From positions 62,001 through 126,000 of IMG/VR virus record IMGVR_UViG_3300023199_000204: a DNA stretch of 64,000 nt. The stretch is one strand, 5' to 3'. The notes beneath the pieces were generated by a model. The model had not been told where the DNA came from, made no database searches, and worked only from the letters and a program-made list of their open reading frames with translations. The number at the start of each line of letters is the position of its first letter. Positions within the stretch are counted from its first letter, which is position 1. Below are positions 26,616-56,885 of this stretch, one piece after another. This DNA comes from a virus. Position numbers and translations under genes: made by a program.

Positions 26616-27445
26616 TGAATTTTATGACATATTTTGATGTTAATTATGCTGATAAGGGGTGGGCTTGTCATCACACCTTATATAAATTCCTTGGAGAAGA
26701 ATTAAAGTTATATGTGTTTGCTTTAGATGAAAAAGTATATGAACAGGCAAAAGAAAAGAAGGGAGTGGTTCCTATTAGATTGAGAGAGGTTGAGGAAAAA
26801 TATCCAGAGCTAAAAGATATTAAAAACACGAGATTAGCGAAAGAATATTATGCCACAATGACTCCAATATTTCCTCTATACTTATTTGAAAAATATAATG
26901 ATGATTTATTATTTTATACTGATGCGGACATAGCGTTTTATAGTAATCCAAAAGAGATGCTTGGTGTTTTAGGCAATAAGTCTTTAATGGTTGTGGATCA
27001 CGGAATTGAACCTCCAAGAGCAAAGGTAAGATTTAATGTTGGAATTTTGGCTTACAGGAATGATGAAAATTGTAAAGAGTTTTTGAATTGGTGGAAAGAA
27101 AAATGTATAGAATGGTGTGAATGGAAAACTATGCCTGACGGAAGATGTGCGGACCAGGGATACTTAAACATTATTCATAACGAGCCTGAGAGATTTAAAA
27201 ATACCTTAGCAATACAGCCTCTAAATACTGGTATTAATGTAAGTCCTTGGTGTGCCGAAAATTGTAATGTTATTAAAACAGGAGACGATATTATTATTAA
27301 TAATAAAACGCCTCTTATTTGCTATCATTTTCACGAATTTAAATTAACTCAAAATGGATATTATCCTACTGGATGGAAATTAGGAAATGGTTTAATTCAA
27401 AATGTTTATGAGCCATATTATAAACTTATCAAGAGTGTTAAATGA
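26615..27445 (+). CDS. GT-A type glycosyltransferase
   Basis: 276 residues, starting in a TAATG overlap. LLFYTDADIAFYSNPKEML near residue 100 gives the DxD metal/nucleotide-sugar motif in the context seen in GT8-like and related nucleotide-diphospho-sugar transferases. RFNVGILAYRNDENC and DQGYLNII are also typical of that fold, and ICYHFHEFK near the C-terminus could be the closing metal ligand. It lies between a GT2 gene and an HNH endonuclease that overlaps its end. The donor is not predictable. Confidence 0.75.
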   Translation: MNFMTYFDVNYADKGWACHHTLYKFLGEELKLYVFALDEKVYEQAKEKKGVVPIRLREVEEKYPELKDIKNTRLAKEYYATMTPIFPLYLFEKYNDDLLFYTDADIAFYSNPKEMLGVLGNKSLMVVDHGIEPPRAKVRFNVGILAYRNDENCKEFLNWWKEKCIEWCEWKTMPDGRCADQGYLNIIHNEPERFKNTLAIQPLNTGINVSPWCAENCNVIKTGDDIIINNKTPLICYHFHEFKLTQNGYYPTGWKLGNGLIQNVYEPYYKLIKSVK

Positions 27446-28389
27446 GCAAAAGAGTTATACCAAAGGGAAAATGTAGTATGTGTGACTCTTTTGCCAAACT
27501 TCCTAAAAATCCAAAAGAAATAGGTAGAATTTGTGAAAAATGTTATAGGCTAAATATTCAGCCAAAAATAAAATGTTCCATTTGTGGTAAATTGAAAATA
27601 ATTCACAAGGACACTTTTTGTCTAAAATGTTATAAAATTACATATGAACCTCCAAAGCACATCTGCTTTATATGTAAAAATAAATGTATATCTAATAAAA
27701 AAACTAGTTCAGGTCCAGTTTGTTTAAAATGCTATGATAAGAACTTTAAACCCAAAAAAAATTGTGAAAATTGTAAAAGAATAAAAGTAGTTAAAAAATA
27801 CATTAATTTTAAGCCGTTATGTGGGGGATGTGCCTCTAATTTTATAAAAAAACAAAAATGTGTAGAATGTAATAATATTAGGAAGATAAATAAAATAACA
27901 GTTAAGGGGACAGTTTGCGGAAAGTGTTATAATAAAAATCATAAACCAAAGCATAGATGTACTAGGTGTAAAAATATAAAATATTTAGCATCTGCCTCGC
28001 CCAATCTTTGTTTTAATTGTTATTACATTAAAAAAAGGAAAGAAGATTATAAATTTTATATTTTAACCAATTTAAGAAATAGTGTGAGAAGTGCTTTTAA
28101 CAAATATTCAAAGACGGGCAAGATAATAAATAGTTCATCTTATGGAATAAATTATAAAAAAATAATAGAACATCTTGGTAATTGTCCAGGGGAAAGTAAA
28201 GAATATCATATTGATCATATAATACCTTTGTCTGCTTTTGATTTAAATGATCAAATACATATTAAAGCAGCATTTTCTCCTGAAAACCATCAGTGGCTTA
28301 AAATAGAGGATAATTTAAAAAAGAGCAATAAATATGATAAAAATAAATTTGATAAACTAATTATGAAATATAAGGAAGGAAAGTTATGA
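27442..28389 (+). CDS. HNH homing endonuclease with zinc-ribbon array
   Basis: 315 residues. The first 200 hold a chain of CxxC pairs about 12-20 residues apart (CSMCDSF, CEKCYR, CSICGK, CLKCYK, CFICKN and so on), forming five or six zinc ribbons. The C-terminal 100 residues carry the nuclease: LRNSVRSAFNKYS, IIEHLGNCPGESKEYHIDHI, then SPENHQWLKIEDNLKK. This matches phage HNH endonucleases (HIDHIIPLSAF with downstream N and H). It overlaps the neighbouring glycosyltransferase and methyltransferase by 4 bases each, so its insertion left both frames intact. The related gene at 54571 is interrupted. Confidence 0.85.
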   Translation: MSKRVIPKGKCSMCDSFAKLPKNPKEIGRICEKCYRLNIQPKIKCSICGKLKIIHKDTFCLKCYKITYEPPKHICFICKNKCISNKKTSSGPVCLKCYDKNFKPKKNCENCKRIKVVKKYINFKPLCGGCASNFIKKQKCVECNNIRKINKITVKGTVCGKCYNKNHKPKHRCTRCKNIKYLASASPNLCFNCYYIKKRKEDYKFYILTNLRNSVRSAFNKYSKTGKIINSSSYGINYKKIIEHLGNCPGESKEYHIDHIIPLSAFDLNDQIHIKAAFSPENHQWLKIEDNLKKSNKYDKNKFDKLIMKYKEGKL

Positions 28390-41908: not shown

Positions 41909-42958
41909 ATGTCTTTTAAAAATATTTTAAAAAAACATAATGATTTGCCACAGGCTCAAAAAGTATTGTTTGTTCCTGTTAATACGCGACATAACGGAAT
42001 GCCGCAGGGCTTTGTAAATAATGGATTTCAGACATATTCTATAAACATTGATAATCCTAGGTTAGATAGAAACAAATATAAAGTTGAAGGTGGCATAAAA
42101 GAAATTGGAGAACTTCTTATAGAAACTTGTAAAAATTTACAACCTAATTGGGTACATATTCCTACCTCTAAACCAGGATTAATAGAGTTAAAAGATGTAA
42201 AAGAGGCAAAAAAAGTGTGTGGCGCAATTTTTACAAGCTGGGCAGGAGATGTTAGAGAAGAACCTTTACCATTTTTTATAGAACTTAGCGAAATAATTGA
42301 TTTTACATTTATCTCTAATGTTGGCCAACTTGATTTATATAGGAAAAATGGATGTAAAAACGTAGATTATTGGCAATACGGAGTGGATGTTAATAAGGCT
42401 AAGCCACTATCTACAAAAGAAAAAGATGTTCTTAAATCTAAATATAATCACGATATAGTATTTTGTGCTAACAGCTATGATGGGTTTCCTGGTTACTATA
42501 TAAGAAAAAGTATAGTTTCAGAAGTTTATAAAAAATATGGATCTAGATTTGCTATTTATGGCAACGGGTGGGATACAATAGCGAAAAATTCTTCAAAACC
42601 TAACATAAAATATTTTGAACAAAATAATGTTTATAATTCATCTAAAATTGTTTTAAGTATTAATAATTTCAATGATATTGAAATGTATTTTTCTGGAAGA
42701 CAGTTATTGGCAATGGCCTCAGGTACATTAACATTATCTCACTATATTCCTGGTTTAGAAAGATATTTTGAAAATGGCAAAGATCTTGTTTGGTTTAAAA
42801 CCGAAGATGAATGTATGAAGTTAATAGATTATTATTTAAATAATGAAGGCGAAGCTAAAAGAATAGGATTAAATGGAAGTGCTAAGGTTCTAAAAGAACA
42901 TTCATATGAAGCTAGAATAAAAGAGTTAGGTATAAAACTAGGATTTATAAATGAGTAG
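41909..42958 (+). CDS. GT4-like glycosyltransferase (CgeB-type)
   Basis: 349 residues. The C-terminal half carries FSGRQLLAMASGTLTLSHYI, GLERYFENGKDLVWFKTEDE and LIDYYLNNEGEAKRIGLNGS, the pattern of the Glyco_trans_1_2/CgeB-type GT-B donor domain. The N-terminal half (VLFVPVNTRHNGMPQGFVNN) is the acceptor domain. It has a weak ribosome site and probably depends on translation of the upstream gene. Its substrate is unknown; adjacency to nonulosonate genes suggests one shared glycan. Confidence 0.7.
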   Translation: MSFKNILKKHNDLPQAQKVLFVPVNTRHNGMPQGFVNNGFQTYSINIDNPRLDRNKYKVEGGIKEIGELLIETCKNLQPNWVHIPTSKPGLIELKDVKEAKKVCGAIFTSWAGDVREEPLPFFIELSEIIDFTFISNVGQLDLYRKNGCKNVDYWQYGVDVNKAKPLSTKEKDVLKSKYNHDIVFCANSYDGFPGYYIRKSIVSEVYKKYGSRFAIYGNGWDTIAKNSSKPNIKYFEQNNVYNSSKIVLSINNFNDIEMYFSGRQLLAMASGTLTLSHYIPGLERYFENGKDLVWFKTEDECMKLIDYYLNNEGEAKRIGLNGSAKVLKEHSYEARIKELGIKLGFINE

Positions 42959-43712
42959 TAAATATAAACTAAATCCAAAAATTGAAGAAATTTTAACTGA
43001 TAAAAGAGTGGCTTTGGTGGGGCCATCCCCATATCTTATTGGAAGTGGAATGTCTAAAATAATAGATAGCTTTGATGTTGTATGTAGGATTAGAGATATA
43101 CTTCCAAAAAAAGATTTTAGAAATGATCTAGGAACACGAACAGATGTAATTTTTTATAACTGTGCGACTATAAGTGTGCCTCATTATAAAAAGCGTCTTA
43201 AAGAAGCCGAATCTGTTCTCAAAGATATTAAGATGATGATATGCCCTGTGGCTAAGGGGCTTGGTTCTGATGATTGGAAATCTTGGCCTGATGATTTTAT
43301 AGCACCAGTGGTTAAAAACTTTGCTAATGTTAATAAATATAACATTCCGTTTCATTGGATAGGTATTCCAAACTATAGAATATTATATAATGAGGTTGGT
43401 GTGGAGCCAAACACTGGAACTTTAGCTATTAAGGTGCTTTTGAAATATAAAGTAAAAGAGCTTTTTATAACAGGATTTAGTTTCTATGCTGAAGGATCTA
43501 CAGTTTCAAAAGTATACTATCCAGGATATTTGTTAAATGGGTTTGAGCCAAATCCAAAGACCTGGAGCCCTCATAAAGGTCATAATCAAGATATACAAAA
43601 AAAGCATTTTATAAACAATATTTTACCAAGCACTTCAACAAAAGTGATAGTTGATTCTTATTTAAACAACCTATTAAGTCTAAATCACAAAGAAGTAATA
43701 AAAATAAAATGA
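42951..43712 (+). CDS. Sialyltransferase-like (GT29-type) enzyme
   Basis: 253 residues. VALVGPSPYLIGSGMSKIID followed by SFDVVCRIR (residues about 19-47) resembles sialylmotif L ('vGnS..l...g..ID..D.V.R.N'). EPNTGTLAIKVLLKYKVKEL with FITGFSFY (about 147-172) resembles sialylmotif S. SPHKGHNQDIQKKHF later supplies candidate catalytic histidines. The next two genes encode CMP-sugar and nonulosonate synthases, which would produce the expected donor. GT29 enzymes are mostly eukaryotic, so a phage copy is unusual. The assignment rests on motifs plus context. Confidence 0.7.
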   Translation: MSSKYKLNPKIEEILTDKRVALVGPSPYLIGSGMSKIIDSFDVVCRIRDILPKKDFRNDLGTRTDVIFYNCATISVPHYKKRLKEAESVLKDIKMMICPVAKGLGSDDWKSWPDDFIAPVVKNFANVNKYNIPFHWIGIPNYRILYNEVGVEPNTGTLAIKVLLKYKVKELFITGFSFYAEGSTVSKVYYPGYLLNGFEPNPKTWSPHKGHNQDIQKKHFINNILPSTSTKVIVDSYLNNLLSLNHKEVIKIK

Positions 43713-44398
43713 AGTTATTAGCTATAATCCCTGCTCGTGGGGCAAGTAAAAGTATAAAGAAAAAAAATATAATAGATTTAAATGGAAACCCATTATTATC
43801 ATATACAATACGTTTTTGTCAAAAGTCCAAAGTAATTAAAAATTGTTATGTATCTACAGAAGATGAAGAAATTAAGGCGGTAGCTCAAAAATATAAAGCA
43901 GCCGTAATAGATAGACCACATAAATATTCTATGGATAATTCTACAGATTATGGCTTTTTAAGCCATTTTTTTAGTATAATTCAATGTGATGAAGTTGCTC
44001 TTATGAGACCAACGACTCCAATTAGAAATTTGGAGTTTGTAGAAAAGGCAGTTAAAAAATATTTTGATATTAAAGACGATATAACTGGGTTTAGAAGTGT
44101 TAATGAAATTAATGAAACTCCTTATAAAGTATTTAAAATAAATAAAAGTGGTATATGCGAAGGATTTTTTGATAATTTTAATAACATAAGTGATTATTCA
44201 AATTTACCCAGACAAAGTTTTCCAAAAACATATAAGCCCAACGGACATATAGATATAGTTAAAAAATTAACTCTAGAGTCTGGTAGTATTTTTGGTAATA
44301 GAATTTATGGTTTCATAGGTAGCAGAATTACAGATATAGATAGTATTGAAGACTTAGAATTCGCAAAATATGAAATAAGTCTAAAGGAGAATAAATGA
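43709..44398 (+). CDS. neuA: CMP-nonulosonate (sialate) cytidylyltransferase, NeuA-like
   Basis: 229 residues, the family's normal size. AIIPARGASKSIKKKNIIDL is the CTP-binding P-loop of CMP-Neu5Ac synthetases, followed by GNPLLSYTI, NCYVSTEDEEIKAVA and MRPTTPIRNLEFVEKAV. The late ITDIDSIEDLEFA segment gives the Asp ligands. It activates a nonulosonic acid with CTP. It overlaps the sialyltransferase-like gene by 4 bases and precedes NeuB, a coherent three-gene module. Which acid (Neu5Ac, Kdn, other) cannot be told. Confidence 0.9.
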   Translation: MKLLAIIPARGASKSIKKKNIIDLNGNPLLSYTIRFCQKSKVIKNCYVSTEDEEIKAVAQKYKAAVIDRPHKYSMDNSTDYGFLSHFFSIIQCDEVALMRPTTPIRNLEFVEKAVKKYFDIKDDITGFRSVNEINETPYKVFKINKSGICEGFFDNFNNISDYSNLPRQSFPKTYKPNGHIDIVKKLTLESGSIFGNRIYGFIGSRITDIDSIEDLEFAKYEISLKENK

Positions 44399-45231
44399 GT
44401 GTTTTTATTATAGGAGAGATAGGTATTAATCATAATGGATGTATAGATACAGCTTTAGATTTAATAAAAAAGGCTTCAGTCGCTGGATGCGATGCGGTTA
44501 AGTTTCAAAAAAGAACGGTAGATGTAGTGTACTCTAAAGAAGATCTGGATCGGCCTAGAGAGTCGCCTTGGGGAACAACAAATCGGGAACAAAAATACGG
44601 GTTAGAGTTCGGAGAGGAAGAGTATAATAAAATTGATAGTTTTTGTAAAAAGATGAAAATAGAATGGTTTGCTTCCTCTTGGGATGTAAAATCTCAATTA
44701 TTTTTACAAAAATATTCTTTAAACTATAATAAAATTGCTTCTGCTATGTTGACAAATAGAGAGTTGTTGAAAATCGTAGCAGCAGAGAAGAAACATACAT
44801 TTATTTCTACTGGAATGTCTAGTATGGAGCAAATAGATAAGGCTCAGCAAATATTTTTGAAAAATGGATGCCCATATGAATTAATGCATACCACTAGTGT
44901 TTATCCAATGGATCCAGAGGACGCAAATCTAAAAATGATAGAGACTTTACAAAAGAAATTTAATGTGCCAGTAGGTTATTCTGGACACGAGGTTGGTATT
45001 GCTATTAGTTGTGCTGCTGCTGCTCTTGGAGCAACCTCTATTGAGAGGCACATAACATTAGATAGATCTATGTATGGTTCTGATCAGAGTGCATCTTTAG
45101 AAATAGCAGGTCTAGAAAAGCTAGTTAAGTACATAAGAGCAATTGAAAAAGCTATGGGTGACGGAGTTAAAAAAACTACAGATAAAGAGCTTGAAGTTGC
45201 TAAAAAGTTACGGCGGGTAAATACTTTATAA
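44395..45231 (+). CDS. neuB: N-acetylneuraminate synthase-like (NeuB)
   Basis: 278 residues with AAAGGAG upstream. IIGEIGINHNGCIDTALDLI and AGCDAVKFQKRTVDVVYSKE are the PEP- and metal-binding start of NeuB. IASAMLTNRELLKIVA, FISTGMSSMEQI, LMHTTSVYP and VGYSGHEVGIAIS complete the TIM barrel. It lacks the C-terminal SAF/antifreeze-like domain that brings most NeuB proteins to about 345 residues. It condenses an aldose such as ManNAc with PEP. No ManNAc-forming epimerase (NeuC) is visible in this window, so the host may supply the precursor. Confidence 0.9.
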   Translation: MSVFIIGEIGINHNGCIDTALDLIKKASVAGCDAVKFQKRTVDVVYSKEDLDRPRESPWGTTNREQKYGLEFGEEEYNKIDSFCKKMKIEWFASSWDVKSQLFLQKYSLNYNKIASAMLTNRELLKIVAAEKKHTFISTGMSSMEQIDKAQQIFLKNGCPYELMHTTSVYPMDPEDANLKMIETLQKKFNVPVGYSGHEVGIAISCAAAALGATSIERHITLDRSMYGSDQSASLEIAGLEKLVKYIRAIEKAMGDGVKKTTDKELEVAKKLRRVNTL

Positions 45232-45668
45232 TGGCATCTATAAGACATATAGGAATTACCGTTAGTAATTTATCAAAATCTTTAAATTTTTATGAAAGCT
45301 ACTTTGGTTTTAAAATTCAAAGAAAAATGGAAGAATCTGGTGAAGTTCTTGATAATTTTTCCGCATTAAAAAATGTAGAAGTAATAACAGTAAAGCTTAG
45401 TGATAATAAGGAGCAGCTTTTAGAACTTCTTTGTTATAAATCTCACCCTAATAATAAAGTTGAGTTAAATTTGAAAAGACAAATTTGTTATGTAGGTTGC
45501 TCACATTTTGCTTTAACTGTAGATGATTTAGATGAGATATATAATAAAATGTGCGAAAACGGGATTATATTTAATTACCCTCCTCAAATTTCATCAGATA
45601 ATAAGGTAAAGATTGCTTTTTGTAAGGATCCAGATGGAGTTTTAATAGAATTGGTTGAGGAACTATGA
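45231..45668 (+). CDS. VOC/glyoxalase-fold protein
   Basis: 145 residues. IRHIGITVSNLSKSLNFYES and YFGFKI, then HFALTVDDLDEIYNKM and FCKDPDGVLIELVEEL, show the two paired beta-alpha-beta-beta-beta modules of the vicinal oxygen chelate superfamily. Metal ligands would be the first His, a Glu of the central segment, His of HFAL and the last Glu. It lies inside the nonulosonate block, coupled to NeuB and an SDR gene. It may isomerise or epimerise a sugar intermediate; this is inference. Confidence 0.75.
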   Translation: MASIRHIGITVSNLSKSLNFYESYFGFKIQRKMEESGEVLDNFSALKNVEVITVKLSDNKEQLLELLCYKSHPNNKVELNLKRQICYVGCSHFALTVDDLDEIYNKMCENGIIFNYPPQISSDNKVKIAFCKDPDGVLIELVEEL

Positions 45669-46351
45669 GTATATTAAAAAATAAAAGGGTATTAATAACT
45701 GGAGCATCTAGTGGCCTGGGATATGAATTAGCAAAGGAATTATGTCATAAAAACTGTGATTTGTTTTTAACTGGAAGGAGTTGTTTAAAAAATATTCCAA
45801 AAGACATATATAGTTTATATTTCCCTTGCGATTTAACAGATTCTACTAAACTAGCTGAATTAATCAAAGAATGTAAAAAGAAGCTAGGTGGAATAGATAT
45901 CCTAATTAATTCTGCCGGAACATTCTCTATTTCAGAAAATGAAAATCTAGAAGATTTAGAATATAATCTAGAGCTAAATGTTATTGTTCCATTTAAACTA
46001 TACAAGGCGTTTATAGATGATATGATTGAAAATAAATGGGGAAGAATAGTTAATATAGGGTCATCTTCTTGCTATAAAGGATCAAAAGATACTTTAACAT
46101 ATTGTACATCGAAACACGCCTTGTTAGGTTTTACTAGATCTTTATATGATAGACATAGAAATGATGATATTAAGGTTTTTTGTATTTCTCCAGGATCTAT
46201 GAAAACTAAAATGGCACAAATTGACCACAGGCAAGACTTTAGTACTTTTTTAGATCCTAAAGAAGTTGCTAAATACATATCTTTTGTTTTGGAGTTTAAT
46301 TCAAACTTAATTTCTGAAGAATTAAGATTAAATAGGATGGTAGTTAAATAA
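45665..46351 (+). CDS. Short-chain dehydrogenase/reductase
   Basis: 228 residues. RVLITGASSGLGYELAKELC is the NAD(P) motif, INSAG is the NNAG equivalent, GSSSCYKGSKDTLTYCTSKH carries the catalytic Ser, Tyr and Lys, and CISPGSMKTKM follows. All active-site elements are present. Its place between a VOC protein and a methyltransferase suggests oxidation or reduction of a sugar intermediate, with substrate unknown. Overlaps the VOC gene by 4 bases. Confidence 0.85.
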   Translation: MSILKNKRVLITGASSGLGYELAKELCHKNCDLFLTGRSCLKNIPKDIYSLYFPCDLTDSTKLAELIKECKKKLGGIDILINSAGTFSISENENLEDLEYNLELNVIVPFKLYKAFIDDMIENKWGRIVNIGSSSCYKGSKDTLTYCTSKHALLGFTRSLYDRHRNDDIKVFCISPGSMKTKMAQIDHRQDFSTFLDPKEVAKYISFVLEFNSNLISEELRLNRMVVK

Positions 46352-46352
46352 T

Positions 46353-47042
46353 ATGACAAAATACACTGAAGTAATATATCCTGAAGACAAAGGTAATACT
46401 TATCCAGATAAATATTTTAAACATATATGTGAAAATTATTTACTTAAAGATTTATATAACAAAAAGATTTTAGATATAGGGTGTGGAAAAGGCACAGCTA
46501 TGAATTATTTTTCAAAATATGGTCTTAATTCATTTGGAATTGATTGCCGAGATGAGGGTTTAGATAATTTTAAACTATGTAATATAGAAAATGAATCAAT
46601 TCCTTACCCAGACAATACTTTTGATATAGTATATAGTAAATCAGTAATAGAGCACGTTATTAATTCTGATAATTTTATTGATCAATCAATAAGAGTTTTA
46701 AAGCCTGGTGGTCTTTTCATATGTTTAACCCCTGACTGGGGATCACAATATAAATATTTTTGGGACGATTACACTCACGTAAAACCATTTACCAGGAAAT
46801 CATTACAAAATTTACTTTTAATTAAGAATTGCGTTGATGTTGAATGTAACTATTTTTATCAACTTCCTTTTTTATGGAAATATCCTAGGCTGGTGTTTAT
46901 ATCAAAAGTCATATCATTTTTATTTCCAGATGATTTGAAATGGAAAACAAAAGCACAAAGAAATACCGAAGATAGAAAGTTAATTAGATTTTCCAAAGAA
47001 AAAATGCTATTGGCTAGGGGATTTAAAGCAAATTATGAATAA
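46353..47042 (+). CDS. SAM-dependent methyltransferase
   Basis: 229 residues. KILDIGCGKGTAMNYFSKYG (motif I, about residue 39), FGIDCRDEGL, NTFDIVYSKSVIEHV and RVLKPGGLFICLTPDWGSQY are the full set of Methyltransf_11-type motifs. The C-terminal part (FYQLPFLWKYPRLVFI) is hydrophobic. Probably methylates a sugar or acceptor lipid in the same glycan pathway. Its 3' end overlaps the next SDR gene by 8 bases. Confidence 0.8.
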   Translation: MTKYTEVIYPEDKGNTYPDKYFKHICENYLLKDLYNKKILDIGCGKGTAMNYFSKYGLNSFGIDCRDEGLDNFKLCNIENESIPYPDNTFDIVYSKSVIEHVINSDNFIDQSIRVLKPGGLFICLTPDWGSQYKYFWDDYTHVKPFTRKSLQNLLLIKNCVDVECNYFYQLPFLWKYPRLVFISKVISFLFPDDLKWKTKAQRNTEDRKLIRFSKEKMLLARGFKANYE

Positions 47043-47757
47043 CTTATTTTCTGTAAAAGACAAGGTCGTAATTATTACTGGCGGTGCGAGAGGAAACGGT
47101 TTAGCATTAACAGAAGGTTTTAGGGCTCACGGAGCTATAGTTTACTCCTGTGATATTTTAAATAAAAATAAAAAAGATCCTAATCATTTTATTTTTAATA
47201 TAAAAGACGTATATAGTCTAGCAAAATTTGTTGATCAAGTATATGAAAATGAAAAACACATAGATGTATTAATTAATAATGCTGGCGTTACAAATAGCGG
47301 ATATACCGATAGTGCTTGGGATGAAACTTATCAAATAAACTTAAAATCACTTTTTAATATTACTAGATTGTGCTTAAAATATATGGTTCAAAAAACCCGA
47401 GGCTCTATAATAAATATTACTAGTTTAAACGCAGAGGTTTCTTTTCCAAATAATCCTTCCTATATAGCTACAAAGGGAGCTATTAAGCAGCTTACCAAAG
47501 CAATTGCCAGAGATTATGGCAAATATAATATACGGGCAAATAATTTAGGTCCAGGCTATATCATTACAGATATGACGGCAACCAGTTATAAAAACGAGGA
47601 AATTAGGACTAATAGGGCTAATAGAACAATGCTTGGAAGATGGGGTTGTTCAGAAGATTTGGTTGGTCCGGCAATATTCTTAGCTTCTAGGGCCTCTTCT
47701 TATATTACTGGAGAAGACATATATGTAGATGGCGGATGGCTAGCGAAGGGAGAATAA
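47035..47757 (+). CDS. Short-chain dehydrogenase/reductase
   Basis: 240 residues. VVIITGGARGNGLALTEGFR (NAD-binding), LINNAGVTNSG, NITSLNAEVSFPNNPSYIAT with KGAI (catalytic Ser-Tyr-Lys), NNLGPGYIITDM and the C-terminal ITGEDIYVDGGW are textbook classical SDR features, closest in style to FabG/gluconate dehydrogenase-like proteins. It is complete. Its role in the nonulosonate block is unknown. Confidence 0.85.
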   Translation: MNNLFSVKDKVVIITGGARGNGLALTEGFRAHGAIVYSCDILNKNKKDPNHFIFNIKDVYSLAKFVDQVYENEKHIDVLINNAGVTNSGYTDSAWDETYQINLKSLFNITRLCLKYMVQKTRGSIINITSLNAEVSFPNNPSYIATKGAIKQLTKAIARDYGKYNIRANNLGPGYIITDMTATSYKNEEIRTNRANRTMLGRWGCSEDLVGPAIFLASRASSYITGEDIYVDGGWLAKGE

Positions 47758-47759
47758 AT

Positions 47760-48374
47760 TTGAAAGATTTTAAAAAATATATAAAAGCTCATATTAAAAA
47801 TAGTTTGTCAATACTAAATAAGGTTAAAAAAGAATGTAATAAAGATATATGTAAAGCTATAGATATAATCCTTAATTCATTATTAGCGGGGAACAAATTA
47901 ATGTTATGTGGAAATGGTGGAAGTGCCGCTGATTGTCAACATATGGCTGCTGAATTCATAAGCTCATTCTCTAAAAATATAAATAGAAAGGGTATTCCTG
48001 CAATAGCATTAACAACAGATACTTCAATTTTAACGGCATATTCTAATGATTTTGGATATGATGGTGTTTTTAAAAGACAAGTTGAAACTTTAGGAAAACC
48101 AGGTGATGTTTTGTTAGGAATAAGTACCAGTGGAAACTCAAAAAATATCATTCTAGCTTTGGAGGCTGCGTCTAACATTGGGATTAAAAGAATATCACTT
48201 ACTGGAAAAGATGGAGGCTTGGTTAAAAATGTTTCAGAAGTATGTATAAAAGTCCCTAGTTCGGACACTATGTATATACAAGAATGTCATTTAACAATAG
48301 AACATATAATATGTGCTATGGTTGAAGAGAAAATAGTAAATAATAAAAATTTTCTTATCAAGGGAGTTATATAA
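47760..48374 (+). CDS. SIS-domain sugar isomerase, GmhA-like
   Basis: About 204 residues from TTG at 47760, preferred to the ATG at 47736 because AAGGGAGA lies at proper spacing before the TTG while the ATG has no clear site and lies inside the SDR gene. MLCGNGGSAADCQHMAAEFI, ALTTDTSILTAYSNDFGY, GISTSGNSKNIILALEAA and the C-terminal ECHLTIEHIICAMVEE match sedoheptulose-7-phosphate isomerase. It could feed a heptose pathway or a related ketose/aldose conversion. It is the last complete gene of the block bounded by direct repeats. Confidence 0.85.
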   Translation: MKDFKKYIKAHIKNSLSILNKVKKECNKDICKAIDIILNSLLAGNKLMLCGNGGSAADCQHMAAEFISSFSKNINRKGIPAIALTTDTSILTAYSNDFGYDGVFKRQVETLGKPGDVLLGISTSGNSKNIILALEAASNIGIKRISLTGKDGGLVKNVSEVCIKVPSSDTMYIQECHLTIEHIICAMVEEKIVNNKNFLIKGVI

Positions 48375-48442
48375 TGAAAGTTAATAAAGACTATACTTGG
48401 AGAGATCTTAAGGTTATTGTAAAACACGAAATATGGAGTTAA
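48374..48442 (+). pseudogene. C-terminal remnant of a GT2 glycosyltransferase (right direct repeat)
   Basis: A 22-codon frame MKVNKDYTWRDLKVIVKHEI is closely related to the end of the GT2 at 40373 (VNKDHTWGDTKVIVKHETW), at DNA level too. It has a GGGAG ribosome site contributed by the GmhA-like gene and could be translated, but is too short to act as an enzyme. It directly precedes an HNH fusion gene. Confidence 0.75.
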
Positions 48443-48445
48443 ATA

Positions 48446-49675
48446 ATGCACGAGAAAAAATGTTCTAAATGTAAAAATATATTAGATTTTTCTAATTTTA
48501 GTAAAAGTACATCTCGTGGGGGTGATAAATTTAGTCTTAGCTATTATTGTAAATCTTGTGTAAGTGAATATAATAAAGAAAAAAATGTTTATAAAAACTA
48601 TTATATAAAAAATAAAAAGGCATGCTTAGAAAAGTGTAAAAGATGGAGAGAAAAAAATATAGAGTATAGGAGAGAATACGATAGAGAATATAGTAAAAAA
48701 AATATAAAGAAAAAGCTAGCATATAAAAAAAAAAAGTATAGAGAAGATGAAACATATCGGCTCAAAGAAAATCTACGCTCTTCCCTGCAGCGTGCTTTTA
48801 AAACTCAAAATACACAAAAAATGTTTTTATCTAAAACTTATGGAATAAATTATGATGAAATAATTAATTATCTTGGACCAAAACCAGAGAGTAATTATGA
48901 AATAGACCATATATTACCTTGTTCATCTTTTAATCATAATAACCCTATGGAAATATGGATGTGTTGGAATAAAGACAATTTTCAATGGCTTCCATTAACA
49001 GAAAATCGTAGGAAAAATAACTACTATAATGATGAATATTATTTAAAATATTATAAAGAAAAAGCAAATATATATGTAAAAAATAATTTTGAGAACTTAA
49101 CTTCTAAATTACATTTAGGATGCAGCAATGTATATTTAGAAAATTATCTAAATATAGACATCAATCCAACATATTATTCTGGTTTTGTAGAGCAAAATTT
49201 TATTGAAAATGTTAAAACTAATTTTAATAATTATTATAGATATGATTTTTGTAAAGGTCCAGAATATTCAGTGGTAGATGTTGGGGCAGACATTAGCAAA
49301 CATATTCCCATTGATAGTAATACTTGTGATGAAGTTGTGATGCTTCACGTTTTGGAACATTTTCCTAAATATGTTGTAGGAAATGTTTTAGATGAAATAA
49401 ACAGAGTTTTAAAATATGGTGGGGTATTTGTTGTAGGAGTTCCAGATATTATTGAAACTTCAAAATTACTTTTAAAAGCGTCTACTCCCGAGGAAGAAAA
49501 CTGGGCATTAAGGCTAATTGATGGTTCCCAACGTAATGAATGGAGTCATCATTTTATGAGTTTCAGTAAAAAGAGTTTAATTAGATTATTAGAAGAACAC
49601 GGGTTTGGAGAGTTTGAAGATTTACCTAATATAAACTTTTATCCTGCTGTTCATTTGAAAGCAAGGAAGTTATAA
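48446..49675 (+). CDS. HNH endonuclease-methyltransferase fusion
   Basis: 409 residues in one uninterrupted frame. Residues 1-200 are an HNH homing endonuclease: an N-terminal zinc ribbon (KKCSKCKNILDFSNFSKSTS, then YCKSC), a long basic region, then LRSSLQRAFK, NYEIDHILPCSSFNHNNP and DNFQWLPLTENRRKNN. From about 215, KLHLGCSNVYLENYLNIDIN begins a class I methyltransferase with CDEVVMLHVLEHFPKYVVGN and EINRVLKYGGVFVVGVPDI. The join falls where a stand-alone methyltransferase would have its start codon. One CATG lies in the HNH half, none in the methyltransferase half. Confidence 0.85.
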   Translation: MHEKKCSKCKNILDFSNFSKSTSRGGDKFSLSYYCKSCVSEYNKEKNVYKNYYIKNKKACLEKCKRWREKNIEYRREYDREYSKKNIKKKLAYKKKKYREDETYRLKENLRSSLQRAFKTQNTQKMFLSKTYGINYDEIINYLGPKPESNYEIDHILPCSSFNHNNPMEIWMCWNKDNFQWLPLTENRRKNNYYNDEYYLKYYKEKANIYVKNNFENLTSKLHLGCSNVYLENYLNIDINPTYYSGFVEQNFIENVKTNFNNYYRYDFCKGPEYSVVDVGADISKHIPIDSNTCDEVVMLHVLEHFPKYVVGNVLDEINRVLKYGGVFVVGVPDIIETSKLLLKASTPEEENWALRLIDGSQRNEWSHHFMSFSKKSLIRLLEEHGFGEFEDLPNINFYPAVHLKARKL

Positions 49676-50673
49676 TGAAAATAAATAATACTGATAAAAT
49701 TTTGGTGACTGGCGGACGAGGCTTTCTTGGAAAGCACGTTGTTCAAGAATTGAAAAATAGGGGCTATGAAGATATAACTATTGCGCCTCCAAGTTCTCAA
49801 TTAGATTTAAGAAACAAAGATTTAGTTGAAGGATATTTTCAGGCATTAAAGCCTGATGGAGTAATTCATTTGGCAGCTTTCTGCGGTGGAATTGGAAAAA
49901 ATCAAGAAAACCCGAACAAAATGTTGAGAGATAATATAAGTATTAATATGAATGTTCTTGATTCATTTAGAAATACTGGTGGAAAACTTGTTGCCGTTGG
50001 CTCTGTTTGTTCTTACCCTAAAAACTGTCCTGTGCCTTTTAAAGAAGAAGATTTGTTTTCAGGATTTCCAGAGGAAACTAATTCTCCTTACGGCATAGCG
50101 AAAAGAGTTATGCTTATGGATATGTTGTCTTATGGTAATAAATGGTATAAAGGTAGAGAGGTGTTTTTGATGCCTGCTAATCTTTATGGACCAGGAGATG
50201 GATTTTTTAAGGATGGGGCTCACGTAATTCCTGATATTATATCAAAAATACATACGACTATCGAAGCAAAAAAAGCATATCAGGCAACTCATCCTGGCGA
50301 TAAGTATAAATATAATTATCTTGAATGTTGGGGTGATGGAAGTCCAACTAGAGAATTCCTATATGTCCAGGACGCAAGCAGAGCCATTGTGGCGGCTTTG
50401 GAGAAGGCAGATGATGTTGGACCATATAATATTGGAAACGGCGTTGAGACGAGTATTAAAGAGCTTGTGGAGAAAATTGCTGAAATTATGAAGTTTGATG
50501 GAGAAATAAGGTGGGACGCAAATAAGCCAAATGGTCAGCCAAAAAGATGTTTGAATGTTAATAAAGCAAAAGAAGCATTTGGTTTTAAAGCAGAAGTTGA
50601 TTTAGATTTAGGATTAAATGAAACAATTTTATGGTTCAAAGAATTAGTAAAAGGAAAAATTAAAAAGGATTAA
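49675..50673 (+). CDS. fcl: GDP-L-fucose synthase-like epimerase/reductase
   Basis: 332 residues, starting in a TAATG overlap. ILVTGGRGFLGKHVVQEL (NADP motif), VIHLAAFCGGIGKNQENPNK, VGSVCSYPKNCPVPFKEEDL, NSPYGIAKRVML (Tyr and Lys) and PANLYGPGDGF match Fcl/WcaG. The final CLNVNKAKEAFGF is also typical. It uses the product of the Gmd-like enzyme encoded next. An epimerase/reductase for a related GDP-deoxysugar is possible. Confidence 0.9.
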   Translation: MKINNTDKILVTGGRGFLGKHVVQELKNRGYEDITIAPPSSQLDLRNKDLVEGYFQALKPDGVIHLAAFCGGIGKNQENPNKMLRDNISINMNVLDSFRNTGGKLVAVGSVCSYPKNCPVPFKEEDLFSGFPEETNSPYGIAKRVMLMDMLSYGNKWYKGREVFLMPANLYGPGDGFFKDGAHVIPDIISKIHTTIEAKKAYQATHPGDKYKYNYLECWGDGSPTREFLYVQDASRAIVAALEKADDVGPYNIGNGVETSIKELVEKIAEIMKFDGEIRWDANKPNGQPKRCLNVNKAKEAFGFKAEVDLDLGLNETILWFKELVKGKIKKD

Positions 50674-50676
50674 TTA

Positions 50677-51654
50677 ATGAAAAAAACAGCGTTAATAATT
50701 GGCGTATGCGGTCAAGCGGGTTCATATTTAGCAGAGTTTTTACTAGAAAAAGACTATCGTGTTGTGGGAGTAATGAGACGAAATGCGACCGCTGATCTTG
50801 GAAACGCCACACATTTAGAGAATGATATTGAAATTGTTGAAGGAGACATTACTGATTTTAGCAGTATATTGAAAATTATTCAACTAACCCGTCCTCAAGA
50901 ACTATATTCATTGGCAGCACAGTCTCACGTTAAAACAAGTTTTGATCAGCCAATTGCTTCTGTAAATATTAATTTACTTGGTGTGGTTAACATACTTGAA
51001 TCTGTTAAAACTTTGGGGTATTCTACAAGAATTGCCCAAGCATCGACTTCTGAATTATGGGGAGCAACTGCTCCACCACATAATGAAGATAGTTATATGG
51101 CTCCAAGGAGCCCTTATGCTATTGCCAAACTTGGTGCCCATTGGTTTGTTAAAATGTATCGGGAAGCATATGGGATGTATGCTTGTAATGCTATTATTCA
51201 TAACTATGAAAGCCCTAGGCGTGGTCCGAAGTTTGTAACTCGTAAAATTACATTAGGAGTTGCCGAATGTTTAAAAGACCCAGACTTTAGGCTTAAGCTT
51301 GGTAATATAAAAGCAAAAAGGGATTGGTCACACGCAAAAGATATGGTCCGTGGTTGGTGGACGATGCTTCAACAGCCAGAGCCAGATGATTTTGTATTTG
51401 GTTCTGGTCAAATGAGGAGCGTGGAAGAATTTTTAGAAAAAGCATTTTCAATTGTCGAATTAGATTGGCAAGACAAAGTAGATATAGATAGGTTCCATAT
51501 GCGACCACTTGAAGTGGATGCCCTATGTGCCGATACATCGAAAGCAAAGGAAATATTGAACTGGGAGCCAGAGATAAGTTTTGATGAGCTGGTGGAAGAA
51601 ATGGTTAAATCAGATTGTAAATTATTGGGAGTAGGTAGTGAAAATTATAAATAG
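50677..51654 (+). CDS. gmd: GDP-mannose 4,6-dehydratase
   Basis: 325 residues. ALIIGVCGQAGSYLAEFLLE, YSLAAQSHVKTSFDQPIASV, QASTSELWGATAPPHNEDSY, SPYAIAKLGAHWFVKMYREA, NYESPRRGPKFVTRKIT and IKAKRDWSHAKDMVRGWW are Gmd signatures; catalytic Thr-Ser-Glu, Tyr and Lys are present. It makes GDP-4-keto-6-deoxymannose, which the upstream Fcl-like enzyme converts to GDP-L-fucose. Its end overlaps the first of four small paralogues. Confidence 0.95.
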   Translation: MKKTALIIGVCGQAGSYLAEFLLEKDYRVVGVMRRNATADLGNATHLENDIEIVEGDITDFSSILKIIQLTRPQELYSLAAQSHVKTSFDQPIASVNINLLGVVNILESVKTLGYSTRIAQASTSELWGATAPPHNEDSYMAPRSPYAIAKLGAHWFVKMYREAYGMYACNAIIHNYESPRRGPKFVTRKITLGVAECLKDPDFRLKLGNIKAKRDWSHAKDMVRGWWTMLQQPEPDDFVFGSGQMRSVEEFLEKAFSIVELDWQDKVDIDRFHMRPLEVDALCADTSKAKEILNWEPEISFDELVEEMVKSDCKLLGVGSENYK

Positions 51655-51919
51655 TGGATTTGAAATTGGAGACAAAATAAAACATACTAAAGAATACATA
51701 GAGTGTTGTACTAATAAAAACTATAATGCTTCAGACATATTTATAGTTTACGATGTCCTTTTTTCCAGAGGTTATGAAAAATTAACAATTTGTTTTCAAG
51801 ATTCGTGGGCAATAAAAAATAATAAACACTATTCAGTTGATATTTCCTATGATAGAAAATTTTATCAGAAAGTAAATTATAAATATTTTCAAGAAAAAGT
51901 ATTTGAAAAGGTGAATTAA
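51638..51919 (+). CDS. Tandem small paralogue 1 (unknown family)
   Basis: 93 residues starting at GTG (GGGAGTAG upstream), overlapping the gmd end by 17 bases. VKIINSGFEIGDKIKHTKEY opens the protein, with IFIVYDVLFSRGYEKLTICF in the middle and VFEKVN at the end. The same plan recurs in the next three genes: an 'N..F.IGD.I..TKE' start, a central 'vYDv..R..K.T.lC..D' strand pair, a 'y.vDl' strand and a terminal 'VFER(L/V)K'. It suggests a small all-beta (SH3/KOW-like) fold. Function unknown. Confidence 0.6.
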   Translation: MKIINSGFEIGDKIKHTKEYIECCTNKNYNASDIFIVYDVLFSRGYEKLTICFQDSWAIKNNKHYSVDISYDRKFYQKVNYKYFQEKVFEKVN

Positions 51920-52255
51920 ATGAAAATACTTAATACTTTTGCTTTTAAAATAGGTGATAGAATTAAATTTACAAAAGAATTTATGGAGTTTTTCTATCCA
52001 GGAATTCACGGACCTGGTAGAGCCATATATTTAATAAATGAGATAAAACAAATGAGGAAGTCTGTAAAAAAGGTTAATCCTAATTGTAAAAAGGGTCATA
52101 TATATTTATATATATATGATATAACTCACGGTAATAACAATAACAGCAAAATAAATGAAATAACATTTTATTTATATCCAAACAACACCCTTGCCTATGG
52201 ATCTGAATTTAAAGGGAAAGTATTTAAAGGGAAAGTATTTGAGAGGGTAAAATGA
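51920..52255 (+). CDS. Tandem small paralogue 2 (unknown family)
   Basis: 111 residues. MKILNTFAFKIGDRIKFTKE and the ending KGKVFERVK tie it to its neighbours, while the middle diverges (lysine- and tyrosine-rich, GHIYLYIYDITHG). An in-frame 15-base duplication at 52211-52240 doubles KGKVF near the C-terminus. It starts directly after the previous stop and overlaps the next gene by 4 bases. Function unknown. Confidence 0.55.
   Translation: MKILNTFAFKIGDRIKFTKEFMEFFYPGIHGPGRAIYLINEIKQMRKSVKKVNPNCKKGHIYLYIYDITHGNNNNSKINEITFYLYPNNTLAYGSEFKGKVFKGKVFERVK
52211..52240 (+). repeat. 15-bp tandem duplication in a small paralogue
   Basis: AAAGGGAAAGTATTT occurs twice back to back (52211-52225 and 52226-52240), adding five codons (KGKVF twice) in frame. 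It lies in the conserved C-terminal motif of the second paralogue, so the family's C-terminus tolerates length change. Confidence 0.85.
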
Positions 52256-52572
52256 AAATATTAAACACAAATTCAAATTTACCATTTAAAATTGGTGATA
52301 AAATTATATATAATCCAAAATTAAAACATTGGGTTAAACATTCTGGAATTGTTAAGTGGAAAGATTTAATTGATAGAATAGACAAATTTAATAAAAACCC
52401 AAGAATTGTGGATGATATTCAAAGAGGCGGCGACTGCTACTATGTTTGTTTAAGAATTAATACCAAATTAGTAATTGGTCATACTATGTATCAGTTGGAT
52501 TTAAATGGAAGATCTTTAGAAACTATATGGAGAGCATTCCCTAATCCATTATTTGTGAGGCTTGAAAAATGA
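52252..52572 (+). CDS. Tandem small paralogue 3 (unknown family)
   Basis: 106 residues. MKILNTNSNLPFKIGDKIIY, the central YYVCLRINTKLVIGHTMYQL and the end PLFVRLEK fit the shared plan, though the TKE element is replaced by NPK. It overlaps both flanking genes by 4 bases. No catalytic residues stand out. Function unknown. Confidence 0.55.
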   Translation: MKILNTNSNLPFKIGDKIIYNPKLKHWVKHSGIVKWKDLIDRIDKFNKNPRIVDDIQRGGDCYYVCLRINTKLVIGHTMYQLDLNGRSLETIWRAFPNPLFVRLEK

Positions 52573-52865
52573 AAGTATTAAATAGTGATTTTGATGTTGG
52601 TAATATTGTTGTTTATACCAAAGAATATAAAAAATATCTTGTTGAAAATAAATCAACAATACTAAAGCCTTTGGAATTTTATGAACAGGAATTTACTGTT
52701 TATGATGTAATAAAATTTCGCAGAATGAAAATAACTAGATTGTGTTTAAAAGACGAAGATTTTCTTAAAAAAGATTTAGTATATACTGTGGATTTAAATC
52801 CAGCTGGGACTTCAGTTGTAGAAAGGAAAAAATTTTCTGGGCAGGTTTTTGAGAGGTTAAAATGA
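52569..52865 (+). CDS. Tandem small paralogue 4 (unknown family)
   Basis: 98 residues. MKVLNSDFDVGNIVVYTKEY, FTVYDVIKFRRMKITRLCLK with DEDFL, YTVDLNP and GQVFERLK make this copy, together with copy 1, the clearest member. It is coupled to the GT2 gene that follows. The four genes lie between gmd and a glycosyltransferase. A regulatory or glycan-binding role is possible but unsupported. Confidence 0.6.
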   Translation: MKVLNSDFDVGNIVVYTKEYKKYLVENKSTILKPLEFYEQEFTVYDVIKFRRMKITRLCLKDEDFLKKDLVYTVDLNPAGTSVVERKKFSGQVFERLK

Positions 52866-53647
52866 GCAAGGTTGGAATATATTCTCCAAGTTATAATGTC
52901 GATAAATATTTACCAGACCTAATTAGAAGCTTACAGGAACAGACATTTAAAGATTGGAAAGTTGCGATATTAGATGATGGTTCCACTGATAAGTCATATG
53001 AGGTTGTCAAGTCTTTATCTAAAACTGATGATAGGATTATTGTTGAAAAAAGACCAAATCACAATGGAAGAATAGGTTTTATAAAAAATGAAACAATAAA
53101 GCTTTTAGGAGATGTAGAATACTTATGTAGTGTTGATGCTGATGATATGATCACACCAAGAGCTTTAGAAACATTCGTTAATTTCCTTGATAAAAATAAA
53201 AATTATGGAGCAGCTTGCGGCAGCTTTGAATGTTTTAATGATGAAGGAAAAAAGTGGCAATTTAGTCACGTGGCAAATTCAAATGAGTTTAGTTCTGAAG
53301 TTTTATTAAAGTATATGTGTTTCTTTCCTATGAGATTTTATAGAAAAGAATGTTATGATGAAATTGGCGGCTATGATAATAATTTAACTTCAGCAATTGA
53401 TTATGATTTTGCTTTAAAACTAGATGAAAAATTTTTAATTAAAAGAATAAAATCTCCTATAAGTTATTTATATAGGCAACACAGTATTCAAATTTCTCAA
53501 AGAGAAAGGCCAGAGCAAAATAATAATGCTAAATTAGCTCTACAAAATGCTTTAAAGAGAAGGGGTTTAAAAGGAAAAGTTTTAAATGACACCCCTCCTT
53601 TTCAGATAAAATATGAGCAAAATAAGCATTTTATTTGGAGACCATAA
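52862..53647 (+). CDS. GT2 glycosyltransferase
   Basis: 261 residues. KVGIYSPSYNVDKYLPDLIR, WKVAILDDGSTDKSYEVVKS and YLCSVDADDMITPRALETFV give a canonical GT2 core with DD and DAD motifs. IGGYDNNLTSAIDYDFALKL supplies the catalytic Asp region. Closer to classical GT2 enzymes than the pair at 25074 and 40373. The donor could be GDP-fucose given the nearby Gmd/Fcl, but this is a guess. Confidence 0.9.
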   Translation: MSKVGIYSPSYNVDKYLPDLIRSLQEQTFKDWKVAILDDGSTDKSYEVVKSLSKTDDRIIVEKRPNHNGRIGFIKNETIKLLGDVEYLCSVDADDMITPRALETFVNFLDKNKNYGAACGSFECFNDEGKKWQFSHVANSNEFSSEVLLKYMCFFPMRFYRKECYDEIGGYDNNLTSAIDYDFALKLDEKFLIKRIKSPISYLYRQHSIQISQRERPEQNNNAKLALQNALKRRGLKGKVLNDTPPFQIKYEQNKHFIWRP

Positions 53648-54570: not shown

Positions 54571-55455
54571 GTGAAAATTTGTTCAAAATGTAATAATAAA
54601 AAAGATTTAGATGAATTTTCAAAAGGAAAGGGAAAATTAGGGCGAGCTTCGTGGTGTAAAGATTGCCACCATAATTATAAATTACTGAGGAAAAAAGAAA
54701 AATGTAGTTTTTGCGGAAATTTTAAAAAAGTAGATAAAAGAATTGATGATAAAATTTTATGTTCCAATTGTAATTCAAAAATAAATATGAAATTATGTGT
54801 TAGGTGTAAAAAAATAAAAATACCATCGAAAAGAGTAGGTGGCGGGCATATCTGTAAAAGCTGTAATAGAAAAAAAGATTTCTGTTAAAAATGTAATAAT
54901 TATGAAAGAATTGAAATAAAAGATCCTAAAATTTGTCATAAATGTTATAATAATAAAGAAGAATGTTATAAATGTAATAAAATTAAAAAAGTTAATAAAA
55001 GGGCTAGTAATAAACCGTATTGCGAATATTGCTCACCTAATGTTGAAAAATGTTATGTATGTTTTAGAGATAAAAGAGTTCATACTAAAATTGATAATAA
55101 GCCTATTTGTAGTAATTGCTATAACAAAATAAGATATAAAAATGATGAGAATTACAATATAAGGCGTAGAATTAGTAGTAATATTAGGTCTCGTATAAAA
55201 AATAAAGGAAAAGTTAAATATAAAGAAATAATAGAACACCTAGGATCGTGTCCAGGTAAAAGATGTTATTATCATATAGATCATATTTTTCCTTTATCGG
55301 CATTTGACCTAACAAAAAGTGAAGAAAGAAAAATTGCTTTTGCCCCAGAAAATCACCAGTGGCTCAAGAAAGAAGAAAATATAAAAAAGGGAAATAAATA
55401 TAATAAAAAAGAATTAATTAAATTTAAAGAAAAAATAAGGAGTGAGAGTAAATGA
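54571..55455 (+). pseudogene. HNH/zinc-ribbon homing endonuclease interrupted by an in-frame TAA
   Basis: Start taken as GTG at 54571 with GGAG five bases upstream, giving KICSKCNNKKDLDEFSKGKG. A longer in-frame ATG at 54475 lies inside the epimerase gene. The single frame of about 294 codons is broken by TAA at 54886-54888 within a zinc ribbon (KKDFC stop KCNNYER). Afterwards zinc ribbons and an HNH domain (EIIEHLGSCPGKRCYYHIDH, then FAPENHQWLKKEENIKK) continue intact to a TGA overlapping the tubulin start. It is a relative of the gene at 27442. Either a nonsense mutant or a readthrough case. Confidence 0.75.
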
Positions 55456-56885
55456 GTGAAAGCAAACTAAAGAATAGAGTGGTCGTCACGGATGAACAAG
55501 GAAATGTTGAGAGAATTAAATCTGATGCTGAAATTGTAAAAGAAAATGAAACTCTAGAAAAAGAATTAAATAATCCTATTGAGACAAAAGAAGAACAAAA
55601 ACTTGATATGAATGTTTTGAAGAAACTCAAAGAAAAACAGCAAGATAAGGAGAATGATGTGAAGGCTGTAGGAACTAGAGATAGAAGTTTATACTTTGGA
55701 GCGGTTGGGCTTGGACAAGCCGGCAATCGCCTGATTCAAACGATGAATAGTTTTGGGTATGAAGCCTGTGCTTTTAATACAGCAAAACAAGATCTTGAGC
55801 ATATTAAGCTGCCGGAAAACAAAAAAGTTTATCTAGATTTTGCTCTAGGCGGAGCGGGTAAGGAATTGGATAATGGTCGGCAAGCAGTGGAAAATAATGC
55901 TGACAAGATATTAAAAACTTTAAATGATAATTTTAATGACTCTCACGAAATGTTGGTTTTAGCTGTCTCTGGCGGGGGTGGAACTGGCTCTGGTGGTGCT
56001 GAGGCGATGATAGGCTTAATGTCATCATTAGGAAAGCCAATATGTGTAGTTTATATTCTCCCTATGGCGTCAGAAGACGCTCTATCAAAACACAATGCTG
56101 TTACTACGTTAGGAAAGCTAGCTAAAATGGCAACATCTGATGTAATTACAACGCTAATAGTTATTGATAATGCTAAAATAGAATTGATATATCCCGGATT
56201 AAGTAAAGCAGAGTTTTGGCCCACAGCAAATGACGCAATTGTTAAACCATTACATTTGTTTAATCATTTGTCATCAATGCCTACTTCTTATGATGCTCTA
56301 GACCCAATGGATTTTGGTAGATTATTTACAACTGGTGATTGTACCATTTATGGTATGGTTGAGATTGAAGATTATATGGAAACAACAGCAATTGCTGAAG
56401 CTATTATTGAAAATCTTGAGGATAGTTTATTAGCATCAGATTTTGATCTTAAAGAGACAAGATTTGGTGGATTTATTGTTACATCAAGTGCGGAAGTATT
56501 AAGAAATCTTCCTGCTACAAATATTCACTATGCTTCTCATGTAATTAGCGAGGCCTGTGATTCTCCGCAACTTGTAAAGGGTGTCTATGAACTTGAAAAT
56601 CATCCTGATACTGTTAGAGTATATACAATGCTTAGTGGTTTAGGATTACCTGCTCCAAGAATAGATGCTCTTAAAAATGAGGCTACAGAGCAAATGGCTG
56701 TTTTAAGAGAGAAGGAAAAATCCAGAGCAAGTAAGATGACTGTTGATTATGGAAGTGGAAATGCTACACAAGACAAAGCACAAGAGGTTCATAGAATGAT
56801 ACAACATAAAAAATCAGGATTTGGGAAACTTACAGGAAACTCAAATAAGATTATTAATAAGAAAAAAGATAGAAGAAAAAGGTAA
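55452..56885 (+). CDS. Phage tubulin/FtsZ-family GTPase
   Basis: 477 residues with AAGGAG upstream. A charged, probably disordered extension covers residues 1-75. The GTPase core starts at about 80 with FGAVGLGQAGNRLIQTM (loop T1). LAVSGGGGTGSGGAEAM near residue 174 is the tubulin/FtsZ signature loop T4. LDPMDFGRLFTTGDCTIYGM near 280 resembles the T7 loop and its following helix. The tail is basic (NKIINKKKDRRKR), as in TubZ and PhuZ proteins. Known phage tubulins centre or segregate phage DNA by forming filaments; that function is by family analogy. Endonuclease genes abut it on both sides. Confidence 0.85.
   Translation: MSESKLKNRVVVTDEQGNVERIKSDAEIVKENETLEKELNNPIETKEEQKLDMNVLKKLKEKQQDKENDVKAVGTRDRSLYFGAVGLGQAGNRLIQTMNSFGYEACAFNTAKQDLEHIKLPENKKVYLDFALGGAGKELDNGRQAVENNADKILKTLNDNFNDSHEMLVLAVSGGGGTGSGGAEAMIGLMSSLGKPICVVYILPMASEDALSKHNAVTTLGKLAKMATSDVITTLIVIDNAKIELIYPGLSKAEFWPTANDAIVKPLHLFNHLSSMPTSYDALDPMDFGRLFTTGDCTIYGMVEIEDYMETTAIAEAIIENLEDSLLASDFDLKETRFGGFIVTSSAEVLRNLPATNIHYASHVISEACDSPQLVKGVYELENHPDTVRVYTMLSGLGLPAPRIDALKNEATEQMAVLREKEKSRASKMTVDYGSGNATQDKAQEVHRMIQHKKSGFGKLTGNSNKIINKKKDRRKR

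Follow-up and report, generated by a model that had tools for sequence, protein, structure and literature searches.

In T4-like phages, the free-standing HNH homing endonucleases mobA-E include mobE, which lies in nrdA of phage Aeh1, and mobA, which lies in a T4 topoisomerase gene; the pieces of the genes that they split are made separately and then reassembled (PMC2988022). Translational coupling has also been discussed for the T4 mob genes (PMC2988022). Another HNH insertion, the ShiLan domain, occupies a phage DNA methylase gene in a reading frame different from that of the host (PMC11855218). In phage ICP1, the chimeric nuclease Odn combines a DNA-binding domain with a nuclease and attacks a parasite (PMC8263062).

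The gene that we describe here, in which an HNH endonuclease and a methyltransferase share one open reading frame at 48446-49675 of the window (the whole stretch of 64,000 bases that was analysed), resembles each of these systems in part. With the mob genes it has in common an HNH gene within or beside a phage gene, a start coupled to an upstream frame, and a host gene that would still be expressed in pieces; there the products are separate polypeptides, whereas in the present gene the larger piece is covalently attached to the endonuclease. Like ShiLan, it places an HNH domain in a phage methyltransferase gene with no detectable intron or intein and with the host frame continuing. In ShiLan, however, the HNH is out of frame and the host, a DNA methylase, is translated across the insert from its own start codon, whereas in the present gene the HNH is in frame and carries the start codon of the host domain, and that host is a sugar-type methyltransferase. 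We rejected a ShiLan-type insertion because the HNH and methyltransferase share one frame and a stop codon precedes the HNH. Odn likewise fuses a nuclease domain derived from a homing endonuclease to a domain of different origin, but its partner is a DNA-binding domain and not a metabolic enzyme. Finally, the LHLGCG-type class I methyltransferases of glycan clusters (loci L116 and L066, and relatives on plasmids and in MAGs) share the fold, motifs and gene neighbourhood of the methyltransferase half; among those fetched, no fusion to an HNH nuclease occurs, although some are fused to other domains. We found no published description in the open-access literature searched of an in-frame HNH leader fused to the large piece of a split host gene. 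Gene splitting by homing endonucleases is known; within that literature, an in-frame fusion that supplies the start codon of the host gene appears to be a new form of it.

Genomic setting of the fusion gene

The virus record that contains the window is 316,473 bases long and, because a record of this size carries a T4-like baseplate wedge gene, a DnaB-like helicase and a PhuZ-like tubulin gene, we assign the virus as a jumbo myovirus. The tubulin homologue is found at 55452-56885 of the window; PhuZ-like tubulin is a marker for nucleus-forming jumbo phages.

The fusion gene is held in a long glycan cluster encoded on one strand. This cluster, at 41909-53647, includes genes for NeuB, a cytidylyltransferase, a family 29 sialyltransferase-like protein, a GmhA-like isomerase and GDP-sugar enzymes. 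Its gene order runs from glycosyltransferases through the sialyltransferase-like, cytidylyltransferase, NeuB, short-chain dehydrogenase and GmhA-like genes to the fusion, which is followed by GDP-fucose synthase-like and GDP-mannose 4,6-dehydratase-like genes. Domain searches identified the immediate neighbours, all on the + strand: upstream, a sedoheptulose-7-phosphate isomerase-like gene (GmhA, SIS domain; 47736-48374), and downstream, a GDP-fucose synthase-like epimerase/reductase (49675-50673) and the GDP-mannose 4,6-dehydratase-like gene (50677-51654). The HNH genes of the phage have a GC content of 24-26%, compared with 27-38% for flanking genes.

In the whole window the tetranucleotides CATG (19 observed against approximately 142 expected) and TGCA (22 against approximately 176) are each depleted about 8-fold, which suggests avoidance of host restriction sites. 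The earlier note had read the CATG counts of the fusion gene, one in the HNH half and none in the methyltransferase half, as fitting two origins. We rejected CATG as a marker of origin, since these counts match the local rate and are what chance would give: the probability of finding no CATG in the 591 bases of the methyltransferase half is 0.84 at that rate. The two paralogous HNH genes of the phage likewise contain none.

Two domains in one reading frame

The fusion ORF (48446-49675, + strand) comprises 409 codons and is stop-free throughout, a length that in DNA of 27% GC is not expected by chance. Searches against Pfam and PHROGs recovered domains in both halves of this single frame, and the in-frame fusion of an HNH endonuclease to a methyltransferase that had been noticed from the sequence is therefore borne out.

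The HNH half consists of residues 1 to about 207 (48446-49066, + strand), with two CxxC pairs, a coiled linker and an HNH core; its end was placed where the paralogues end in the alignment. PHROGs "endonuclease VII" matches across residues 1-202 (E=5e-14), and Pfam HNH_4 matches residues 149-178 with an E value of 5e-4 that falls slightly short of the curated cut-off. The catalytic core (48905-49006, + strand) contains D154-H155, N178 and N187, which are among the eleven columns that are invariant in nine aligned HNH sequences, and all of the family-invariant catalytic residues are present. Of the zinc-binding cysteines, C6, C35 and C38 are common to the paralogues, and C9 is present as well. 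Single-sequence pattern scans for relatives found none, whereas alignment-based scans did find relatives. In all 22 of the viral HNH relatives that we fetched, the reading frame closes no more than about 30 codons from the HNH match; unlike every one of them, the HNH half lacks a stop codon of its own and reads into the methyltransferase.

Over its whole length, the HNH half can also be aligned with two paralogues from this phage (33% and 28% identity). The paralogues stop at ...NKYDKNKFDKLIMKYKEGKL and ...NKYNKKELIKFKEKIRSESK, where the fusion reads on as ...NNYYNDEYYLKYYKEKANIYVKNNFENLTSKLHLGC. Paralogue 1 is free-standing (27442-28389, + strand); it overlaps both of its neighbours by the 4 bases ATGA and is set exactly between genes, and its first 8 bases, ATGAGCAA, are identical to the start of the next gene. 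Repeats at the HNH borders that resemble target sites, with 7 shared bases (8 in the case of paralogue 1), were rejected as being within the range of chance. Paralogue 3 (54571-55452, + strand) has an in-frame TAA at 54886-54888, which falls inside a CxxC zinc knuckle, and it is either a decayed copy or the product of a sequencing error. On its downstream side paralogue 3 adjoins the tubulin/FtsZ-like gene.

The methyltransferase half comprises residues 216-409 (49091-49675, + strand), from ENLTSKLHLGCSN... to the stop codon, as delimited by Pfam, alignment and model. Matches to Pfam Methyltransf_11 and Methyltransf_23 at residues 279-387 (E=1.6e-7 and 8.7e-7) are both above the curated cut-off, and PHROGs "methyltransferase" extends across residues 278-405. 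The SAM motif I, LHLGCSN (49109-49129, + strand), and the acidic residue of the Rossmann fold are present, with the third glycine of motif I replaced by serine (GCS for GCG); the signature HVLEHF (49346-49363, + strand) has its His, Glu and His conserved. An AlphaFold2 model of this half alone, made using an alignment with 15 relatives, yielded a complete Rossmann-type domain (pLDDT 88.7, pTM 0.87), and SAM methyltransferases ranked at the top when that model was used in a PDB fold search. The cut-off, the confident full fold and the PDB neighbours agree with the earlier description of a complete methyltransferase, which is of the class I SAM-dependent kind. The DNA-methylase motifs [DNS]PP[YFWH] and PCQ are absent from this half, and for that reason a restriction-modification reading is unsupported; judged by its motifs, relatives and neighbours, the enzyme is of the sugar-pathway type within the glycan cluster and not a DNA methylase.

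We asked whether the methyltransferase could be made separately. The in-frame ATG, GTG and TTG codons of the ORF are at 48446, 48821, 48947 and 48959, and the next is only at 49271; with no such codon in between, the internal translation start near 49085 that had been thought worth looking for is absent. Because motif I lies between 48959 and 49271, the SAM-binding motif would be made solely as part of the fusion and, on the sequence as given, fusion is obligate for the methyltransferase. Starts in other frames near the join all run into a stop codon within 28 codons and none serves the methyltransferase, so that correcting an overlooked stop codon or a simple frameshift would not bring back an independent methyltransferase gene. 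Similarly, gaining or losing one base at the A-rich join would leave the methyltransferase without its own start codon, evidence against a simple homopolymer slip having merged two normal genes.

The linker, the IYVKNNF region (49067-49090, + strand), is predicted to prolong the helix that ends the HNH half. In a full-length model of the fusion, of which the HNH half is fairly confident and the methyltransferase half unreliable, a helix at residues 196-221 runs from the end of the HNH into the methyltransferase (local pLDDT 67-87). According to these models, both domains are probably folded and joined by a helix. We rejected an intein, because no Hint splicing domain or intein family was found in the fusion with Pfam, PHROGs or NCBIfam and because the stop at 48440 closes the edge of the insert. 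We also rejected a group I intron: the region 46000-52000 had no Rfam match at E values up to 1, and the ORF occupies nearly the whole insert.

The join and the upstream stub

Stand-alone versions of each half were found, namely the 22 HNH relatives and methyltransferases of the L116 type. The nearest methyltransferase relative found is the stand-alone protein of L116, a 68-kb viral contig from another phage, which has 35% identity to the methyltransferase half over 188 residues (pairwise E=2e-39) and shares with it the C-terminal signature FEDLPNxNFYPxVHL. The L116 protein begins MSEEDKKEI-KLHIGC, 9 residues ahead of motif I, and its gene is followed, at a distance of 2-3 kb, by genes for GDP-mannose dehydratase and fucose synthase. 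Encoded at L116:3974-4867, it has approximately 70 additional C-terminal residues that resemble a tail-fibre repeat (GDITITSGSGGGNYLASDITF...), which makes it a further fusion within this methyltransferase family. Many bacterial and viral relatives begin 1-9 residues before motif I, and the earlier placement of the join at the expected methyltransferase start is upheld, as stand-alone enzymes begin at that position. L116 offers an HNH-less relative, but its distance is too great for it to reveal the empty site. No other fetched locus has an HNH in frame with a methyltransferase motif, and none of the gmhA neighbourhoods examined in other phages has a methyltransferase directly downstream of gmhA. 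Neither a second copy of the fusion nor an HNH-less copy of the exact site was found in the collections searched, which may leave out records very near this genome.

Directly upstream of the fusion is a stub of 22 codons, MKVNKDYTWRDLKVIVKHEIWS (48374-48442, + strand), whose ATG overlaps the gmhA stop codon (TAATG) and which is a candidate for the severed 5' end of the methyltransferase gene. The Shine-Dalgarno-like sequence of the fusion ORF, GGAG (48435-48438, + strand), lies inside the stub, 7 bases before the ATG at 48446. The stop codon of the stub lies 3 bases ahead of the HNH start, and stub, HNH and methyltransferase are all in one reading frame. A start-context repeat, GGAGTTAWATAATG, at 48374 and 48446 was dismissed, as 8 of 1,378 gene-start pairs are equally alike.

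The stub ends in ...IWS and the methyltransferase resumes at ENLTSKLHLGC, so that joined they would read ...IWS-ENLTSKLHLGC. Some distant methyltransferases have N-terminal extensions, ending in LWSENQPLRLHLGC (L068), LWSDNQPLRLHLGC (L071), KWSKGQPLRLHLGC (L077), LWHAGGSLRLHLGC (L082), IWHSEIPLRLHLGC (L109) and IWREGTPLRLHLGC (L111); before RLHLGC such proteins have LWSENQPL, LWSDNQPL, IWHSEIPL or IWREGTPL, and the IWS of the stub falls in the matching register. Using a position-specific score built from 13 such extensions, we found that the join of stub and methyltransferase scores 3.9 bits and the next best join position -10, giving a single matching register. In this test, which was made after the match had been spotted by eye and in which each control took its own best join position, an equal or higher score was obtained by 150 of 20,000 shuffled stubs and by 308 of 40,821 22-mers of the window (p about 0.008). 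A tblastn search of the stub against phages gave only chance matches, in tail chaperones, and a DNA pattern for W..N...[KR]LHLGC had one match in viral contigs, by chance.

This comparison suggests that the HNH split the methyltransferase gene after codon 22, as an insert of 651 bases (48440-49090) between codons 22 and 23. Against it, the statistic is modest, the matching sequences belong to distant methyltransferases, and L116, the nearest relative, is without such an extension; we rate the chance that the stub is the severed methyltransferase start at about even. The earlier note had suggested that the endonuclease may have inserted at the start of the methyltransferase gene. Landing at the 5' end remains the simplest explanation, but the stub, as a possible severed N-terminus, may place the insertion inside the gene. 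The two sites make different predictions: an HNH-less methyltransferase would begin like MKVNKDYTW...IWSENLTSKLHLGC if insertion was after codon 22, and M-F-ENLTSKLHLGC if insertion was at the start codon.

Origin and consequences of the fusion

We consider it probable that a free-standing HNH gene was inserted in the 5' portion of a methyltransferase gene of the sugar pathway and stayed fused in frame. A gene for a homing-type endonuclease would have entered the glycan cluster of the jumbo phage, with its ribosome site and start codon either brought along or reused and a stop codon immediately ahead. With the HNH frame running stop-free into what remained of the methyltransferase, the latter would be produced solely as the C-terminal portion of a protein of 409 residues. 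The overlapping signals suggest that ribosomes leaving gmhA would translate the stub first, terminate at 48440, and reinitiate 3 bases further on, at 48446. In mixed infections the putative HNH would nick HNH-less alleles and be copied into them, and keeping the methyltransferase frame would prevent the insertion from killing the pathway, in which the methyltransferase half would keep methylating a sugar. We infer this order of events, and activity in either half. The continuous frame, the intact residues in both halves, the lack of a start codon for a separate methyltransferase, the free-standing relatives, the sugar-gene setting, the low GC of the HNH genes and the in-register match of the stub support entry of an HNH gene; the replacement of Gly by Ser in motif I runs counter to it, as does the failure to find an HNH-less copy of the site or a second fusion in the collections searched.

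The main alternative concerns the site of insertion. The HNH may have inserted at the gene boundary before the methyltransferase start, with a later small deletion, taking the HNH stop and the methyltransferase start codon together, having fused the frames; the stub would then be an unrelated tiny ORF. The many stand-alone methyltransferases that start just before motif I, L116 among them, agree with this history, as do the position of paralogue 1 exactly between genes and the join, AATAATTTTGAG, which differs from an ATG by one base. It nevertheless requires a second event and gives no account of the coupled start of the stub, its stop 3 bases before the HNH, or its in-register match, and we regard it as possible but doubtful. 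A different objection is that the methyltransferase half is a non-functional, decaying passenger, read through by chance after the HNH inserted, for which one could cite the serine in motif I and the stop that interrupts a paralogous HNH gene in the phage itself. Its 194 stop-free codons in DNA of 29% GC, the retention of residues conserved in relatives, and a fold that is both complete and confident make this unlikely.

The remaining explanations are less probable still. Since the source is a single metagenomic virus record, and A6 and T4 runs occur at the join (49078-49090), an assembly or base-calling error could have merged two separate genes; we think this very unlikely, because no ATG, GTG or TTG near the join starts the methyltransferase in any frame, even after a shift, and a homopolymer slip therefore does not restore two normal genes. 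That a nuclease and a methylase are on one chain might also point to a selected bifunctional enzyme, such as a restriction-modification-like nuclease with a DNA methylase, but this seems most improbable given the missing DNA-methylase motifs and the sugar-pathway identity of both the relatives and the neighbours of the methyltransferase.

Returning to entry of the HNH gene into the methyltransferase gene, we tentatively raise the further idea of addiction by protein fusion, in which the HNH splits the host gene yet supplies its larger piece with a start codon and an N-terminal domain. If this is true, a phage that lost the parasite would lose the methyltransferase as well. The fusion is a small example of parasitic genes reshaping host proteins: an endonuclease serving as the leader of the surviving piece would demonstrate a direct way for a selfish gene to become hard to lose and, by the same route, to create a new domain combination.
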